DNA of 36,266 nucleotides from a virus. The notes under the pieces were generated by a model. The model did not search any database. It had not been told where the DNA came from and was given only the letters and a program-made list of their open reading frames with translations. The stretch's first letter is position 1. Every line of letters starts with the position of its first letter. A program made the position numbers and the translations under genes. The stretch covers positions 1 through 36,266 of the IMG/VR virus record IMGVR_UViG_3300009488_000041; one strand, given 5' to 3'. Below, piece by piece: positions 1 through 36,266 of the stretch.

Positions 1-218
1 CCCCTTCATCTGCACCTGCACCTGCACCTGCACCTGCACCTGCACCTGCACCTGCACCTGCACCTGCACCTGCACCTGCACCTGCACCTGCTTTTACTAT
101 GACAGAATTGGCTAATGGTTTAACTCGTGAGCAATATCATAAAGCTGGGTGGACTGATGAAATGCTCATAAATGTCAAATACATGAATGCTCCAAAGCAT
201 GAAGGCATCTTAAGTTAA
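1..218 (+). CDS. C-terminal part of Pro/Ala-rich early phage protein (cut by window start)
   Basis: The open frame enters from the left edge (first full codon at base 3) and ends with TAA at 216-218. It reads PSS, then about 13 Ala-Pro pairs encoded by CACCTG repeats, then a compact tail containing LTREQYHKAGWTDEMLI. That last motif resembles a short C-terminal helix I associate with phage early proteins in which a Pro/Ala linker joins two ordered ends. The gene at 35820-36266 has the matching N-terminal half and runs off the right edge, so the two are probably one gene in a circular genome. The DNA polymerase start follows 36 bases later. Function is unknown. Confidence 0.75.
   Translation, partial: PSSAPAPAPAPAPAPAPAPAPAPAPAPAPAFTMTELANGLTREQYHKAGWTDEMLINVKYMNAPKHEGILS
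13..90 (+). repeat. 13 tandem copies of hexamer CACCTG
   Basis: Perfect tandem CACCTG units fill bases 13-90 and encode an (Ala-Pro)n linker. Repeats of this kind change length by slippage and break short-read assemblies, which is probably why the sequence starts here. Confidence 0.95.
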
Positions 219-15747: not shown

Positions 15748-16164
15748 CTAAGGTACCCTATTAATATAACTAGACCAATCCACACTCAAATCTAAAATAG
15801 CCCAACCCTTATTTATTCGCAATGGACCACGACCGATATTACTAATTCTTACACAGGTGTCATTCCACTCAAAATTAACACCAGGTTTAAAAATCAAAGC
15901 TATTTCATCAGCTTTCCTGTTCAAAACAGCACTACCACTATCTTGTGGATAATACACACTTATTTGATAAATCCCCTCATGCAAAAATGTTCCTTCTGGA
16001 CCTAGTTCTGATTGTATAGGTTGAATAGGTAAAATTGTACCAGCAAGAAACGGAGTTGAAATATCAGGCTCACCTGCCGTATTTTCAAGAAAAACCGGCA
16101 ATCCACCAAAATCAGACATTTTCAACGGTACATCAAGAGCCTTTTGTATTTCCTCAAAACTCAT
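15748..16164 (-). CDS. Tail terminator protein (DUF4128-like)
   Basis: 138 residues from ATG 16164, chosen because it overlaps the TAA of the small upstream gene (TAATG) and because family members start MSFEEIQKAL as here. An in-frame GTG at 16206 is open but would overlap that gene further. The pattern GLPVFLENTAGEPD, TPFLAGTILP, GIYQISVYYP and AVLNRKADEIALIF fits DUF4128, which covers the hexameric ring capping the head-proximal end of the tail tube. Confidence 0.76.
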   Translation of the reverse strand: MSFEEIQKALDVPLKMSDFGGLPVFLENTAGEPDISTPFLAGTILPIQPIQSELGPEGTFLHEGIYQISVYYPQDSGSAVLNRKADEIALIFKPGVNFEWNDTCVRISNIGRGPLRINKGWAILDLSVDWSSYINRVP

Positions 16165-16319
16165 TATCTTTCGATCATCTTCGTAATCATATGATGTATC
16201 CACCACGCTACTAGTCCAACAAAAATCACCAATGGTACAAATTCAACTGGTATATTTTCAGTATGATTACGATGAAGATAAAAAAGGAATCCCGTAAGGG
16301 CAAAAAACATGAAGATCAT
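16164..16319 (-). CDS. 51-residue two-helix membrane protein
   Basis: ATG 16319 overlaps the previous TGA (ATGA) and the TAA overlaps the terminator-protein ATG (TAATG). It is thus coupled on both sides, which strongly supports a real gene despite its size. The sequence starts MIFMFFALTGFLFYLHRNHT, has a short ENIPVEF loop, a second helix VPLVIFVGLVAWWI and a basic end (MITKMIER). A two-helix hairpin with a charged tail resembles a small holin, but no lysis enzyme is adjacent. It may instead be an envelope accessory protein linked to the upstream autotransporter. Confidence 0.55.
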   Translation of the reverse strand: MIFMFFALTGFLFYLHRNHTENIPVEFVPLVIFVGLVAWWIHHMITKMIER

Positions 16320-16660
16320 GGGGCGGCTACTTCAGAACCTAATACCTGCTCTGACTTAAATACTATCATTTCTAAAAACTCAAATGAAAATTGATGTCTA
16401 TAAATAGATGGCATCTCAAATATACACCCTTTGAAATTAATCACCTCTTTTACTCCAGACATGATAATAATACTGAACGGGCGAGGACCACTCATCATCT
16501 TATACATTACATCAATAATCGGTGAATTATGCTTCAAATTAAATGTTAAAATTCTCACCTTCTCACCAATTACTACATAATCACCTACAATGAACTCCTC
16601 CGTCGATAACCCCTCAACTATCAACGTGTGCTGACCCTCACCCTGCATGCTTATGTGCAT
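16316..16660 (-). CDS. Hypothetical protein between autotransporter and tail genes
   Basis: 114 residues from ATG 16660, chosen because GAGGG lies 7 bases upstream. The frame is open back to a TTG at 16795, but that extension runs through a hairpin that looks like a terminator. The product is strand-rich (HTLIVEGLSTEEFIVGDYVV, IDVMYKMM, FSIIIMSG, HQFSFEFLEMIVF), and the last part could be a tail-tube-like strand pair. Its place between the gp10-like and tail terminator genes would suit a minor connector or tail protein. No family recognised. Confidence 0.5.
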   Translation of the reverse strand: MHISMQGEGQHTLIVEGLSTEEFIVGDYVVIGEKVRILTFNLKHNSPIIDVMYKMMSGPRPFSIIIMSGVKEVINFKGCIFEMPSIYRHQFSFEFLEMIVFKSEQVLGSEVAAP

Positions 16661-16756
16661 TGTAATCCCTCGCTTGTGCGAGAACCGCAAAGAGTCCAGA
16701 CCCTGCGATCCTCGCATCCTCCATGTAAACCCATAATACATAGAGGATACTACCTG

Positions 16757-16796
16757 AAAATAGAGTTGCTGCTGTTCGTACACGTGCAGCAGCAAC
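16757..16796 (-). terminator. Candidate terminator hairpin after the autotransporter
   Basis: On the minus strand GTTGCTGCTG and CAGCAGCAAC form a perfect 10-bp stem with a 12-base loop (plus-strand arms 16765-16774 and 16787-16796). It is followed by TCTATTTT. The stem is GC-rich for this genome. It would end the autotransporter transcript before the tail genes. The short T run makes it imperfect. Confidence 0.5.
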
Positions 16797-16800
16797 CTAC

Positions 16801-16844
16801 ACCACTATGTACAGAAGGAGTTCCGATCCATGGCACATAGTGGT
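16801..16844. repeat. Inverted repeat ACCACTATGT / ACATAGTGGT
   Basis: A perfect 10-bp inverted repeat with arms 16801-16810 and 16835-16844 and a 24-base loop. It lies just upstream (minus strand) of the terminator-like hairpin and may be a second RNA stem or a protein site. The rest of 16845-16992 is AT-rich, with no convincing gene; a 26-codon frame with a CxxC is present but unsupported. Confidence 0.55.
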
Positions 16845-16992
16845 ATCCCTATTTTAGAAATAATACCAGCGAACATCTCAAATTTTACTATCTATACCGG
16901 TCAAAGCAAATTATTACTGACTTCGTATTTCGATCACAATCATAACATTTTCTTATCCTCTCTATCATCCAATTTTGGCAATATATATCTGC

Positions 16993-19785
16993 TTAGAAAT
17001 TCATTCTAAATTGCGCACTTGCTGCATGAGAAACAAAATCCGACCGAGTGCTCAAATCATAATCAAAACTGAGAACGTAGACACCATCATCAGTTGAATA
17101 ATCAATACCAGCTCCGATGATTCCACCTAACGCAGCTGGCTCCGGTCCACTCGTTGGGGCGACAGTAGTTCCTGTGCTCACCCAAGAAGAATTCACCTGT
17201 GCCTTCTCTTGCAAAACATCCCAATCAGCAATTAAACGGAGCTTCGGCGACAAAGTACCACCATCAAAAACCAACTTCTTGTTCAGTGTAACACCAGCTT
17301 TGATACCAAACAAGTCCATACTTTCAGGACTAACATTCAAAGCTCCGAACCCAGTTTCGGTGTACTCATCTGGATTTATATGCGAATATGCCAAAGTCAC
17401 CTGAGGAGTGATCGCATACAATTCCATATCAATCGGCATCCCAGCTCCAACACTAGCTGAATACGTGCTGGTGTCATACTCGCCCGTCACCGGAACACCA
17501 AATCCAGTACGCTCTGTAGCACTAGATGAATGGGCATAAGCCATAGAGCCGTTTATGAAAAAATCATTCATATACAAGGTTCCGTACAAAGTACCTTGTA
17601 TCTGGTCGGTGTCTGTTATCGATCTTGCTGTACTCTTCCCTTCAACATCAATATCAGCAAAACTTAGGGCTATTCCAACCATGAAATCGCTACTAACAAT
17701 CTGGTCAATTCCTATCACGATACCATGAGCATCCGCATCATATCCAGCAACTCCATCGCGCATGTCCATCTCAGAATCAGATCCAAATGCTTTCAGCCAT
17801 ACACCCATGTTGAGAGAGGGATTGCCGGCATTGACACCAGAATGTTTCGACAATCCGTATTTCCCAGAACTGGCAACAATGGTGTTCTGATGGCTGGTTA
17901 TCGTATTATTAACGACTGTTACCCCAGACATAGCTCCAGATAACGCAACACCAACATCAGGGTTTATCTTCTCATTAAAATGTTTGATGGACATTTTACC
18001 GTTATTAACGGCTTCTATGGCATCAACTACTTTCAGATTGATGCTTATTGCGTTATTGATTTTTGCAGTAGCTGATTCCAAAGCTTTACTGGCTGCTTTG
18101 ATAGCCTTGTCATCACTATTTTTTATAGCCTCAATCAAATCAGCCTCAGCAGCTTCCATAGCCTCAATAGCCGTCTCAACACCAGCCATCTCACTTACAA
18201 AAGTTTTAGCAGCATCAAATTCAGCTTGAGTCAATACGTTGATGATACCTGCTTTTTTCAAAGCTTTTGCATCAGCCATCATCTCATCTGTTACTTCAGT
18301 CCGAGCTGCTGTGACAATGGCATCAAGAACATTTTGATCTGTTGCTACGTCCCGAGCTGCTGTGACAATGGCGGCATCGATCTCTTCTTGAGTGATTGAG
18401 CCATCATTGACTATCTGCTGATTTTCGTAAACTTCAACGACTTTCTGTGCTTGTGCCTCGGTGACCAAAATACTTTTTATATAAGCCTCAGCCCAATCAG
18501 TATCATTATTATCAATCAGAGCCGAAGCTTCGATTGCATTCTCTTCATTAATATTAACTCCCGTAACGAGGTTTTCATTAACTGTTAATAATTTCAGAAT
18601 ATTTGCACCATCACCGTTACCAAAATCATTGACGGAGACATTGTCCTCAACAGTAACTACAACAATCTCATTAATAAAATTGTCAGCATCCTCAAACTGT
18701 TTAACAGTTACCACGTCACGTTTAGCGGTATTTGCAGCAGCATCAATCTGAATCTGGTTTATTGCACCAGCAAAAACCAAATCCGAAGCAGCATCAATAT
18801 CAACTTGACTTATCACATCAGCAGAAATCAAAGCCTCAGCCTTGGCAATATCGGCCAGTGTGACGTCTACGATGGGCCCAGCATCCCGTAGTGCTTCAGC
18901 AGCTGTAATGCGGTCAGAGGTGATCTCTTCGCCGTTGTTGCCATCTGGATCATCGTAGAATGCTATCTTGGTGTTTGCTTTGTGAGCTGCTTTAATGGCC
19001 TCGACCTGTGCCAATGTAAGATGCACAGCTGGACTATCCTCATACAAAGCACCTTCGGCGTAAGCCTCACTATTAAAACTCCGCTTCAGATTACCTACAA
19101 CTTCTGCAGTGACAGGAACATCTACAGAATCAATCCCAAGAATCGCATCAATATTCTCATCAGGAATCGCATCAATACCCTCATCTGTTGACGCCACAGT
19201 CTCAACAGCCAACAATTCAGTCGCTGCATAATCGAAACCTGTTCCAAGGTCCACCAGATAAGAGGCCGCATCAACTTGAATCTGAGTAACTCCCTCAACA
19301 TCAGCTTGAGTAAAGATTCTCTCACTACCAAGAACATCAACACTTGTCTTGAAATTAGACAAGACTTCTCGGAGTCGCTCAACTTCCGTAGTGGCAAGAT
19401 CGACACTGGAGAAGGTAGCGGAACTGGTCCAATCATCCCTGGTGTCCAAAGACGTGTTGTACGCAGCAAGAGCATTTTTATACTCAGAAACTGCTGCATT
19501 GATGGAATCATCAACTGTATCGATTGTGATACCATCAACAGCACTTACGTACGCATCAAACGTTATCTCTGTCTTACCTTCAATAACACTCATCTCGTGG
19601 TTAGCTGCAATCGCCTTATCAAAAGCAATATCGGCCGTATTCAAGTGCTCGTTAACGGTGCTAAATTGAGCAGCAAAAGCAGCCGAAACATCACTGAAAT
19701 CATCTCCAGCTATAGCAACAGTCACACCAGAACTCATAGACAACACACACGCGAGAAATAAAACCGACTTTTTCATAGTATTCAT
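16993..19785 (-). CDS. Autotransporter outer-membrane protein encoded among head-tail genes
   Basis: 930 residues from ATG 19785. Residues 1-26 form a Sec signal peptide (MNTMKKSVLFLACVL ... VAIA, cut before GDD). The passenger (about 27-660) is acidic, Ala-rich and helical, with loose repeats around phrases such as EEIDAAIVTAARDVATDQ and IDAAANTAKRDVVT. The last 270 residues, from GVWLKAFGSD to the terminal QFRMNF, alternate hydrophobic strands and end in Phe, as in type V (autotransporter) beta-barrels: the barrel inserts in the outer membrane and exposes the passenger. Local GC is clearly higher than in its neighbours. It interrupts the gp10-like to tail terminator order and has its own promoter-like site, so it behaves as an acquired cargo gene (moron). 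Possible roles are adhesion, receptor masking against superinfection, or help in cell exit. Confidence 0.82.
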   Translation of the reverse strand: MNTMKKSVLFLACVLSMSSGVTVAIAGDDFSDVSAAFAAQFSTVNEHLNTADIAFDKAIAANHEMSVIEGKTEITFDAYVSAVDGITIDTVDDSINAAVSEYKNALAAYNTSLDTRDDWTSSATFSSVDLATTEVERLREVLSNFKTSVDVLGSERIFTQADVEGVTQIQVDAASYLVDLGTGFDYAATELLAVETVASTDEGIDAIPDENIDAILGIDSVDVPVTAEVVGNLKRSFNSEAYAEGALYEDSPAVHLTLAQVEAIKAAHKANTKIAFYDDPDGNNGEEITSDRITAAEALRDAGPIVDVTLADIAKAEALISADVISQVDIDAASDLVFAGAINQIQIDAAANTAKRDVVTVKQFEDADNFINEIVVVTVEDNVSVNDFGNGDGANILKLLTVNENLVTGVNINEENAIEASALIDNNDTDWAEAYIKSILVTEAQAQKVVEVYENQQIVNDGSITQEEIDAAIVTAARDVATDQNVLDAIVTAARTEVTDEMMADAKALKKAGIINVLTQAEFDAAKTFVSEMAGVETAIEAMEAAEADLIEAIKNSDDKAIKAASKALESATAKINNAISINLKVVDAIEAVNNGKMSIKHFNEKINPDVGVALSGAMSGVTVVNNTITSHQNTIVASSGKYGLSKHSGVNAGNPSLNMGVWLKAFGSDSEMDMRDGVAGYDADAHGIVIGIDQIVSSDFMVGIALSFADIDVEGKSTARSITDTDQIQGTLYGTLYMNDFFINGSMAYAHSSSATERTGFGVPVTGEYDTSTYSASVGAGMPIDMELYAITPQVTLAYSHINPDEYTETGFGALNVSPESMDLFGIKAGVTLNKKLVFDGGTLSPKLRLIADWDVLQEKAQVNSSWVSTGTTVAPTSGPEPAALGGIIGAGIDYSTDDGVYVLSFDYDLSTRSDFVSHAASAQFRMNF

Positions 19786-19840
19786 ATAGTTACAATCTCT
19801 CATTTTCACTAGTAAAATTAACAACATCATGACTGTTGCT

Positions 19841-19869
19841 ATAATACCATATATGTATCTGAGATGCAA
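19841..19869 (-). promoter_or_regulatory. Promoter for the autotransporter gene (extended -10)
   Basis: On the minus strand TTGCAT, a 17-base spacer ending TGG, then TATTAT. The -10 matches 5 of 6 and has the TGn extension; the -35 matches only 3 of 6. The predicted start lies about 50 bases upstream of ATG 19785. It sits between the end of the gp10-like gene and the autotransporter start. Confidence 0.55.
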
Positions 19870-19880
19870 CATGATTAAAC

Positions 19881-20330
19881 TCACAACCTATTCAACCTAG
19901 CAGCATTCTCATTGAAAATCCTGGAAAAGTTCCTTTCGGTAATTCTTACAACTCCTTGCGGAGCCTGTCGGGAAAAACCACCTACCGTCTTCGGGCCATC
20001 CCGATACCCACCAAATTCTATGGTCTCAGCATATGGAAGATTATTTGTTAACCAAAAAATACGTGCATTAGCTGCTTGATTAACTGTTTGCTCAATCTCC
20101 CGATTTACTTGATTCAATGGCCTAATAGCAGTTGTAACTTGTGTGGATGGAATTCCTATCGTCACAAACCAATTACCTCTAAACCTACCACCAGTAGCTG
20201 GTGATTCTTGTACTGGGGACGCACGTACTACTTGTCCAAAAATTTTAATAACAGTAATCCTGTAAGTCTCATCAGACAAATTAGTGAAATCAATTCTAAA
20301 ATCTCTGATTTGACTTGCAAAACTAGCCAT
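19881..20330 (-). CDS. HK97 gp10-like head-tail connector / tail completion protein
   Basis: 149 residues from ATG 20330, which overlaps the TGA of the upstream gene (TGATG); a TTG one codon earlier is less likely. The middle and end match the gp10-like pattern: SPVQESPATGGRFRGNWFVT (the TGxLRxxW motif), NNLPYAETIEFGGYRDGP (YAxxxExG) and APQGVVRIT. In phages of this plan it joins the head neck to the tail. The expected next gene is the tail terminator, but the autotransporter and two small genes intervene. Confidence 0.78.
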   Translation of the reverse strand: MASFASQIRDFRIDFTNLSDETYRITVIKIFGQVVRASPVQESPATGGRFRGNWFVTIGIPSTQVTTAIRPLNQVNREIEQTVNQAANARIFWLTNNLPYAETIEFGGYRDGPKTVGGFSRQAPQGVVRITERNFSRIFNENAARLNRL

Positions 20331-20626
20331 CAAGGTAACCGACTTCGATTGCTCGGTCTCTTTTTTAATCTATCCCATGACCTATTCCTGACTCCAAAAT
20401 TGTCCCCATAAGAACTAGGGTTGCGTGTATCAATCTTCCCTGTGTAAGGATTAACATTACCTTGAGTACTCCAATTATTATTAATAGTACTATCCGAAGA
20501 AGATCGATAATGTCCCGGCACATAGGTACCATTCGATTTCATGTAACCATTCACCCAGGTATCAGCATGAGCAAAACTAGAAAACATTGTCAATGCCGAC
20601 AATAAGAACATCCCAATAAATTTCAT
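20330..20626 (-). CDS. Small secreted protein with GYxKxxGTYVxGHYRS domain
   Basis: 98 residues with a clear signal peptide (MKFIGMFLLSALTMFSSFAHA, cut before DTW). The mature part reads VNGYMKSNGTYVPGHYRSSS, then NNNWSTQGNVNPYTGKI, a motif I know from small periplasmic or surface proteins of Gram-negative bacteria and some phages, with no settled function. It lies within the connector genes, 3 bases after the head-closure gene and coupled to the gp10-like gene. With the autotransporter next door it is the second envelope-directed product in the late operon. Confidence 0.72.
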   Translation of the reverse strand: MKFIGMFLLSALTMFSSFAHADTWVNGYMKSNGTYVPGHYRSSSDSTINNNWSTQGNVNPYTGKIDTRNPSSYGDNFGVRNRSWDRLKKRPSNRSRLP

Positions 20627-32869: not shown

Positions 32870-33127
32870 TCAATTCAGAATATCTGTAATGGGTGTATTT
32901 AGAATTTTCTTGTTATTAGTCTTTTTGGCGAATGTAATAACAAGTTCCCGAATCTTCATAATTCCGCCAAAGTGATGTTTAACAAGTGATTTACTACAGT
33001 TTGCCTCTCTAGCTATATCAATAAGAGTCATTCTAAACAATCCTTTTTCATGGACACAGCGAAGAATACAAGCGAAAAGCAAATCACGGCGTTCGTGTTG
33101 AGACATATACTTATTTTCTGTAAACAT
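32870..33127 (-). CDS. TetR-type HTH protein without ligand domain
   Basis: 85 residues from ATG 33127, chosen because AGAGGA lies about 9 bases upstream; it overlaps the upstream gene by 17 bases. SQHERRDLLFACILRCVHEK, then GLFRMTLIDIAREANCSKSL and VKHHFGGIMKIREL, matches the TetR N-terminal three-helix DNA-binding domain, including the K-x-x-x-YxHF-like turn. The C-terminal regulatory domain of normal TetR proteins (about 200 residues) is absent. It may be a minimal phage repressor or activator. Confidence 0.66.
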   Translation of the reverse strand: MFTENKYMSQHERRDLLFACILRCVHEKGLFRMTLIDIAREANCSKSLVKHHFGGIMKIRELVITFAKKTNNKKILNTPITDILN

Positions 33128-33494
33128 TATGGAATTCCTCTTGATTTTTAACAAAACTACCTATCCCTGAGTTTTGTTTAACAATATTGATGAAATTTTG
33201 TTGGGCTTGGTCATTTTTATTTTTGAAATCAAATTTCCAATCAGGGTTTTTAATTTCAAGGGCTGTAAACACACCATAGGTATGACCACATGGGCACTTT
33301 ATAGGTGTTATACCTATTAGATCGGAACTTTTAAATACGGTATTGATTTGATGTGAATCATTACCGAGTCCAAAACGTATGGGTGTTCCAGTAGTTGGAT
33401 TTGGTAGCGTTCCTGAATTATTTCGCATAAGAAAAGAGTTAAATTTGGATAAGGAATGAATTCTTATCCATGATAGTAGCTGTCGTTCTGTCAT
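33111..33494 (-). CDS. VRR-NUC-like nuclease
   Basis: 127 residues. RNNSGTLPNPTTGTPIRFGL, SSDLIGITPI with the metal-binding Asp, GVFTALEIKNPDW with the E-x-K pair, and DQAQQNFINIVKQNSGIGSF fit the VRR-NUC (PD-(D/E)xK) order. A CPCGH insertion sits before the catalytic strand. VRR-NUC enzymes cut branched DNA, and phage versions are commonly next to an SF2 helicase, as here (4-base overlap). It probably acts in recombination or in resolving replication intermediates. Confidence 0.75.
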   Translation of the reverse strand: MTERQLLSWIRIHSLSKFNSFLMRNNSGTLPNPTTGTPIRFGLGNDSHQINTVFKSSDLIGITPIKCPCGHTYGVFTALEIKNPDWKFDFKNKNDQAQQNFINIVKQNSGIGSFVKNQEEFHNVYRK

Positions 33495-35819: not shown

Positions 35820-36266
35820 ATGAAAATCACATTTGATCCATCCAACTTAGATGATTGGTTAGCTGTACAAGAGATTATGGAGTTAACATCAGTACTTGAA
35901 TCAGTACCTACAGCTGCATCAGCAATGCAACCACCTACAGCTGCATCAGCAATGCAAGTTGTTGTACCGATACAGACGGCAGTACCAATGGTGCCATGTG
36001 ATGCTAGTGGTGCGCCATGGAATCCACGATTTCACACAGATAGCAAAAACAAGACTAATAAAGGATTTTGGAAAAGAAGGAAAGGGGCATCTGTAGAAGA
36101 ATATGATGCGTTTGCGAAATCATTTACAACTATAACAATACCGGCTCCACCTGCATCCATAGCTCCACCTGCATCCATAGCTCCACCTGCATCCATAGCT
36201 CCACCTGCATCCATAGCTCCACCTGCATCCATAGCTCCACCTGCATCCATAGCTCCACCTGCATCC
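35820..36266 (+). CDS. N-terminal part of Pro/Ala-rich early phage protein (cut by window end)
   Basis: 149 codons from ATG 35820 (AAAGGGAAAAG upstream) to the edge. After a helical start there are two PTAASAMQ repeats, then a conserved block with GAPWNPRFHTDSKNKTNKGF and WKRRKGASVEEYDAF. Its G-x-PW-x-xRxH...K..GxWxxRRG pattern is shared by early proteins of many phages in my memory. An Ala-Pro-Pro-Ala-Ser-Ile linker encoded by an 18-bp repeat follows. In relatives such a linker leads to a C-terminal helix like the one at bases 91-218 of this window. The role is unknown; it lies next to replication genes. Confidence 0.75.
   Translation, partial: MKITFDPSNLDDWLAVQEIMELTSVLESVPTAASAMQPPTAASAMQVVVPIQTAVPMVPCDASGAPWNPRFHTDSKNKTNKGFWKRRKGASVEEYDAFAKSFTTITIPAPPASIAPPASIAPPASIAPPASIAPPASIAPPASIAPPAS
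35907..35957 (+). repeat. 24-bp direct repeat in the Pro/Ala-rich gene
   Basis: The 24-base unit starting CCTACAGCTGCATCAGC occurs at 35907-35930 and 35934-35957, identical copies with a 27-bp period, encoding PTAASAMQ twice. Confidence 0.9.
36144..36266 (+). repeat. 18-bp tandem repeat running into the window end
   Basis: Seven copies of GCTCCACCTGCATCCATA, the last one 15 bases long and cut by the edge, encode Ala-Pro-Pro-Ala-Ser-Ile. It contains the CACCTG of the repeat at the window start, so one may have evolved from the other. Confidence 0.95.

Follow-up and report, generated by a model that had tools for sequence, protein, structure and literature searches.

A viral DNA record, analyzed here over its full 36,266 bases and called the window below, encodes a 930-residue protein that is almost certainly a classical type Va autotransporter. 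Its gene lies among virion genes, at a site whose content differs between closely related phages. The passenger of this protein is very probably displayed on the surface of the infected cell, and we tentatively propose that its main function is to shield the cell from further phages. The window also contains genes for a terminase, a portal, a Mu F-like protein, a P22-type coat protein, connector and tail proteins, DNA polymerase, primase and helicase.

The autotransporter gene runs on the minus strand from an ATG at 19785 to a stop at 16993 (16993-19785), and an earlier note made from the letters of this DNA had both the coordinates and the strand right. By inspection, residues 1-26 (19708-19785) are a clear Sec signal peptide, as that note had claimed; it reads MNTMKKS-VLFLACVLSMSSGVTVAIA/G, with two lysines in the n-region, a hydrophobic core and an AIA cleavage-like motif. 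It is followed on the same strand by an acidic, alanine-rich passenger predicted to be helical (residues 27-584; 18034-19707), a modeled pore helix (residues 609-643; 17857-17961) and a 12-strand autotransporter beta-barrel ending in Phe (residues 660-930; 16996-17808). Residues 662-904 match the Pfam family PF03797 (Autotransporter) with E=2.1e-42, covering profile positions 1-250 of 255. The C-terminal barrel proposed in the earlier note was borne out by structure prediction, in that an AlphaFold model that drew on eight related barrels gave a textbook fold with the helix at 609-643, then 12 long strands and an end at Phe930. Solved translocators were the best structural matches of the modeled barrel, namely NalP (1uyn; Z 33.9, rmsd 1.6 Å over 276 residues), EstA (Z 31.7) and EspP (Z 29). 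With its signal peptide (by inspection), PF03797 barrel, 12 strands plus pore helix and aromatic C-terminal residue, the protein has the characters of type Va, and it shares the signal peptide, the pore helix, the 12-strand C-terminal barrel and the terminal Phe with the classical members NalP, EstA, EspP, AIDA-I and AaaA. It differs from them in being phage-encoded and in having a predicted helical, acidic and repetitive passenger without a Pfam domain. A trimeric autotransporter adhesin of the YadA type, with a trimerising anchor of about 70 residues, was considered and rejected given the full-length single-chain barrel.

The passenger contains 16.7% alanine and 18.7% aspartate plus glutamate, with a net charge of -71. 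The earlier description of it as helical and alanine-rich is correct for the composition, while the helices appear in prediction with low confidence only; a fold predicted for the passenger alone, without relatives, had a mean pLDDT of 39.7 and was unusable, and it points to no particular receptor-binding domain. A repeat profile revealed a 17-residue repeat, for example ITQEEIDAAIVTAARDV, in at least eight copies, four of them consecutive and helical (residues 308-375; 18661-18864, minus strand) and further ones at residues 166, 464, 498 and 518. Most of the length of this passenger is unalignable with the passengers of the sister phages described below. Repeats of the 'ATADDVVEVGDIL' type are common to the passengers of L001, L101, L135 and L137 and absent from that of the window. 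Kinship between the two kinds of repeat was rejected, as no unit was found when the 'ATADDVVEVGDIL' profile was run on the passenger of the window (max-score p=0.17); the converse profile, made from the 17-residue repeat and run with G161 as a control, picked up no more than one or two marginal units, in L001 and L101. In the passengers scanned, Pfam gave no known adhesin domain, and no convincing passenger relatives were found in the bacterial order that holds the closest chromosomal barrels.

The position among head-tail connector genes, also pointed out in the earlier note, is between the Neck1 or tail completion gene (phrog_169; 19881-20333, minus strand) and the tail terminator gene (phrog_179; 15748-16206, minus strand, with the homologous start at 16164). 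We compared five states of this site, those of the window and of L001, L101, L100 and L143. The site is empty in L100, where the stop of Neck1 overlaps the start of the terminator gene and the major tail protein shares 80% identity with that of the window. L143, a record that starts after the neck gene, has only a 1319-residue propeller-repeat protein before the terminator gene. In L001 the site holds a 789-residue propeller protein, a 1220-residue autotransporter and a 130-residue ORF, an arrangement also seen in L101, and in the window it holds the autotransporter and an ORF at 16316-16795. The propeller-repeat proteins ('FNNDGTKIFMVGSENDSIYEYDLSTAFD') range from 789 to 1319 residues and show no signal peptide by eye (L001 13459-15825; L101 62-2428; L143 243-4202). 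Of 50 phages linked by a related coat protein, only L001 had a PF03797 match. In L101 (2653-2666), as in L137 (705-711) of another phage type, the signal-peptide start and the passenger lie in different frames, which could reflect a sequencing or assembly error or genes that are broken or switching.

Since the sisters show autotransporter, propeller-only and empty states, this is a variable cargo site, and we have little doubt that the autotransporter gene is a moron: it is extra between two genes that are adjacent in L100, and its composition is unlike that of its neighbors. Its GC content is 43.2% against 37.5% for the whole window and its GC3 is 0.357, whereas the flanking genes have 0.235 and 0.285, both in agreement with the higher GC reported before. 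A deviating composition could also point to a host contaminant, a chimera or a misassembly, a concern raised in the earlier note, yet that explanation is effectively eliminated because two sister phages from different metagenome records, L001 and L101, have a homologue of the autotransporter between Neck1 and the terminator gene, and the gene is found in two other phage types as well. As close relatives show this site empty, with a propeller gene only, with an autotransporter gene only or with both, the role of such cargo can be tested by direct comparison.

The transcription signals proposed for the gene fared less evenly. An extended -10 element, TGGTATTAT, is indeed present upstream of it (19841-19849, minus strand), while its status as the gene's own promoter is unproven, since the -35 of this site (19846) is weak (3/6), about 30 comparable sites occur in the window and promoter-like sites are found at chance rate; a consensus promoter scan of the window did not list it. 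Downstream of the gene, the proposed hairpin proved to be two consecutive strong hairpins (16764-16846, minus strand; z=-4.4), a possible terminator, with a T-rich tail that is modest only. On the opposite strand, a near-consensus sigma-70-type site (19818-19845, plus strand; 11/12, with TG ahead of the -10) overlaps the putative -10 of the autotransporter gene.

Two further small genes lie close by. The ORF 3' of the autotransporter gene (16316-16795, minus strand, likely start 16660) is related (E=8e-17 to L138 10569-11000) to a myovirus virion protein of the phrog_280 type that is encoded next to the tail sheath. In this siphovirus-like genome its GC3 is high (0.45), and it may mark DNA imported from a contractile-tailed phage. 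A 98-residue protein with a signal peptide (phrog_29674; 20330-20626, minus strand) is encoded between the head closure gene Hc1 and Neck1. The head closure and Neck1 genes directly adjoin in L001, L002 and L100, without this protein, and the gene is therefore a second small insertion for an exported protein.

Using a profile built from both phage and bacterial barrels, we detected further copies of the autotransporter in viral contigs of two other phage types. L134 and L135 are contractile-tailed phages with tail sheath, Baseplate_J, UvsX and SbcD-like genes, and their autotransporter of 1111 or 1164 residues adjoins a 447-residue signal-peptide protein (L135 11049-12389) that is porin-like by eye and has no Pfam or PHROG match. 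These two phages are near-identical and their autotransporters are identical except for one in-frame insertion of 53 residues of repeat units, a type of difference that short-read assembly of repeats could exaggerate. L136 and L137 are the two ends of one record, which has its own terminase and represents a third phage type; its autotransporter is broken across the record ends, and the break probably falls within the repeats. A tblastn search against 50,697 phage records returned only four unannotated fragments with 24-27% identity, and the two of them that were inspected are marked UNVERIFIED. Rfam gave no match.

The best bacterial matches to the window barrel come from one order of Pseudomonadota (48 genomes), and the closest are the chromosomal autotransporters of G161 (49% identity), G197 and G141 (both about 40%). 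This kinship suggests that order as a candidate source of the phage's host. The genes around these three autotransporters are ordinary cell genes, named by eye as TPR proteins, an IalB-like protein and a methionine-pathway-type enzyme. In contrast to the window protein, the three have chromosomal neighbors and Gly/Thr-rich passengers. In a tree of moderate support, one row of which is a fragment, the five phage barrels cluster together (86/87) beside these cellular barrels (98/98). The simplest reading of these sequences is a single capture from a bacterial chromosome and subsequent spread among phages; repeated capture is possible, given the moderate support and the fragmentary row. Between L001 and L101, dN and dS are 0.18 and 0.50 for the barrel and 0.03 and 0.29 for the terminator gene, which indicates that the barrel is under constraint, although looser than that on a virion gene. 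For the passengers of the same pair the values are roughly 0.37 and 0.84, a crude estimate because alignment of the repeats is poor. Across the family the barrel stays and the passenger differs, with 17-residue helical repeats in the window and 'ATADDVVEVGDIL' repeats elsewhere.

Most likely, a phage acquired the gene for a complete type Va autotransporter from a bacterial chromosome, and it came to lie at the site between the neck gene and the terminator gene. The protein would be made late, together with the virion proteins. Because it belongs to the autotransporter family, we infer that it is exported by Sec, that the host BAM complex places the barrel in the outer membrane and that the long acidic passenger is exposed outside on the infected cell. 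There the passenger could form a surface shield or mask a receptor, lowering the adsorption of further phages (superinfection exclusion), and this might also spare progeny from loss on the dying cell and its debris. Selection for shielding would account for a barrel that is kept while the passenger is swapped or changes its repeat number. The location of the gene in the late cluster counts against exclusion, as exclusion factors are often early products. Four points nevertheless make us prefer shielding as the main function, with rather less than even confidence. The gene recurs in phages without an integrase, the autotransporter of L134/L135 has a second outer-membrane-like protein beside it, one anchor is retained under a varying displayed part, and phage T5 has a receptor-blocking surface protein (PMC4728585). 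This protein, Llp of T5/BF23, is made by a virulent phage, excludes superinfection and presumably cuts inactivation on debris (PMC4728585). The likeness to the window protein lies in the proposed function of a phage-made outer-membrane protein; Llp itself is a small lipoprotein, is encoded next to the receptor-binding protein gene and is no autotransporter (PMC4728585).

The main rival is adhesion or aggregation, which accounts for the repeats as well as shielding does. Infected cells would attach to particles or to other cells, infected or not, and lysis would take place beside fresh hosts. Autotransporter adhesins typically combine a conserved barrel with repetitive, fast-varying passengers, and the change in repeat number between L134 and L135 and the propeller-repeat protein in the same cargo site of the sisters would fit such a role too. 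It is rather unlikely, however, given that the passengers scanned have no Pfam adhesin domain and, as a mild counter-argument, that a strongly acidic passenger tends to repel. Less probable again is a conversion-like gene for host fitness, which would help the bacterium during a prolonged carrier state or pseudolysogeny, for instance through attachment or protection from grazers. Neither the window phage nor four further records of phages with the autotransporter gene yielded an integrase, which makes lysogenic conversion less likely, and the gene is embedded among virion genes; the prophage proteins LasAI/LasAII in Liberibacter would be the precedent for it (PMC3708911). A role in exit, one of those suggested in the earlier note, where late insertion of barrels would weaken the outer membrane and aid lysis, agrees with the late gene cluster but is quite improbable, as it would not call for a passenger of 560 residues that varies from phage to phage and no lysis gene was found beside the autotransporter gene.

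Taking shielding as the preferred reading, the combination of a common anchor with differing outer parts suggests that these phages repaint the surface of the infected cell, perhaps to keep other phages off. It is also plausible, at somewhat less than even confidence, that unrelated phages with different tails and related hosts share and recombine a host-derived barrel with interchangeable repeat passengers, and remodel the infected-cell surface in mutual competition.

Known phage changes to host surfaces involve small lipoproteins, porins and sugar-modifying enzymes. Here, several phage types carry a full type V secretion protein of bacterial origin with the anchor kept and the displayed part varied; if the shielding function is true, it would be a large and evolvable exclusion factor and would come with a natural library of passengers tolerated by an autotransporter barrel. 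The earlier remark that phages do not normally carry genes for large type V proteins holds as a rule, but phage autotransporter domains were already known from uncultured phages and from Liberibacter prophages (PMC3708911). The former are the proteins A0A6J5KUW0, A0A6J5L9T3 and A0A6J5R861 of uncultured Caudovirales phages, named 'Autotransporter beta-domain containing protein', which are phage-encoded and have the same barrel fold, yet are uncharacterised and only 11-15% identical to the window barrel. The latter, LasAI/LasAII (HyvI/HyvII) of Candidatus Liberibacter asiaticus prophages, are surface-exported autotransporters whose passengers contain variable tandem repeats. They belong to a lysogenic prophage, and their authors describe them as lacking a typical signal peptide and as having a translocator not homologous to others (PMC3708911). 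They resemble the window protein in being phage-borne with a repeat passenger, and their published description sets them apart from it, as the window protein has a signal peptide and a PF03797 barrel. In the open-licence literature searched, the phrase 'phage-encoded autotransporter' was not found, and neither was a full classical autotransporter in a cargo slot of virion genes, with relatives in three phage types and with exchanged passengers.

Both ends of the window (3-218 and 35820-36266, plus strand) are reading frames with Pro/Ala repeats. The homologues of these frames lie at opposite ends of the L001 record, with two further genes between them, and from this layout the window seems to lack only a few kilobases. 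A 94-residue protein (32870-33154, minus strand) has a weak match to TetR_N (E=4e-4, below the Pfam cut-off) and is a possible phage regulator. In the sister phage L001, two phage ORFs beside the tail genes (L139 10261-11290) have type IV prepilin-like N-termini (GFSLVEVAIVLVIIG; GFTLIEV).
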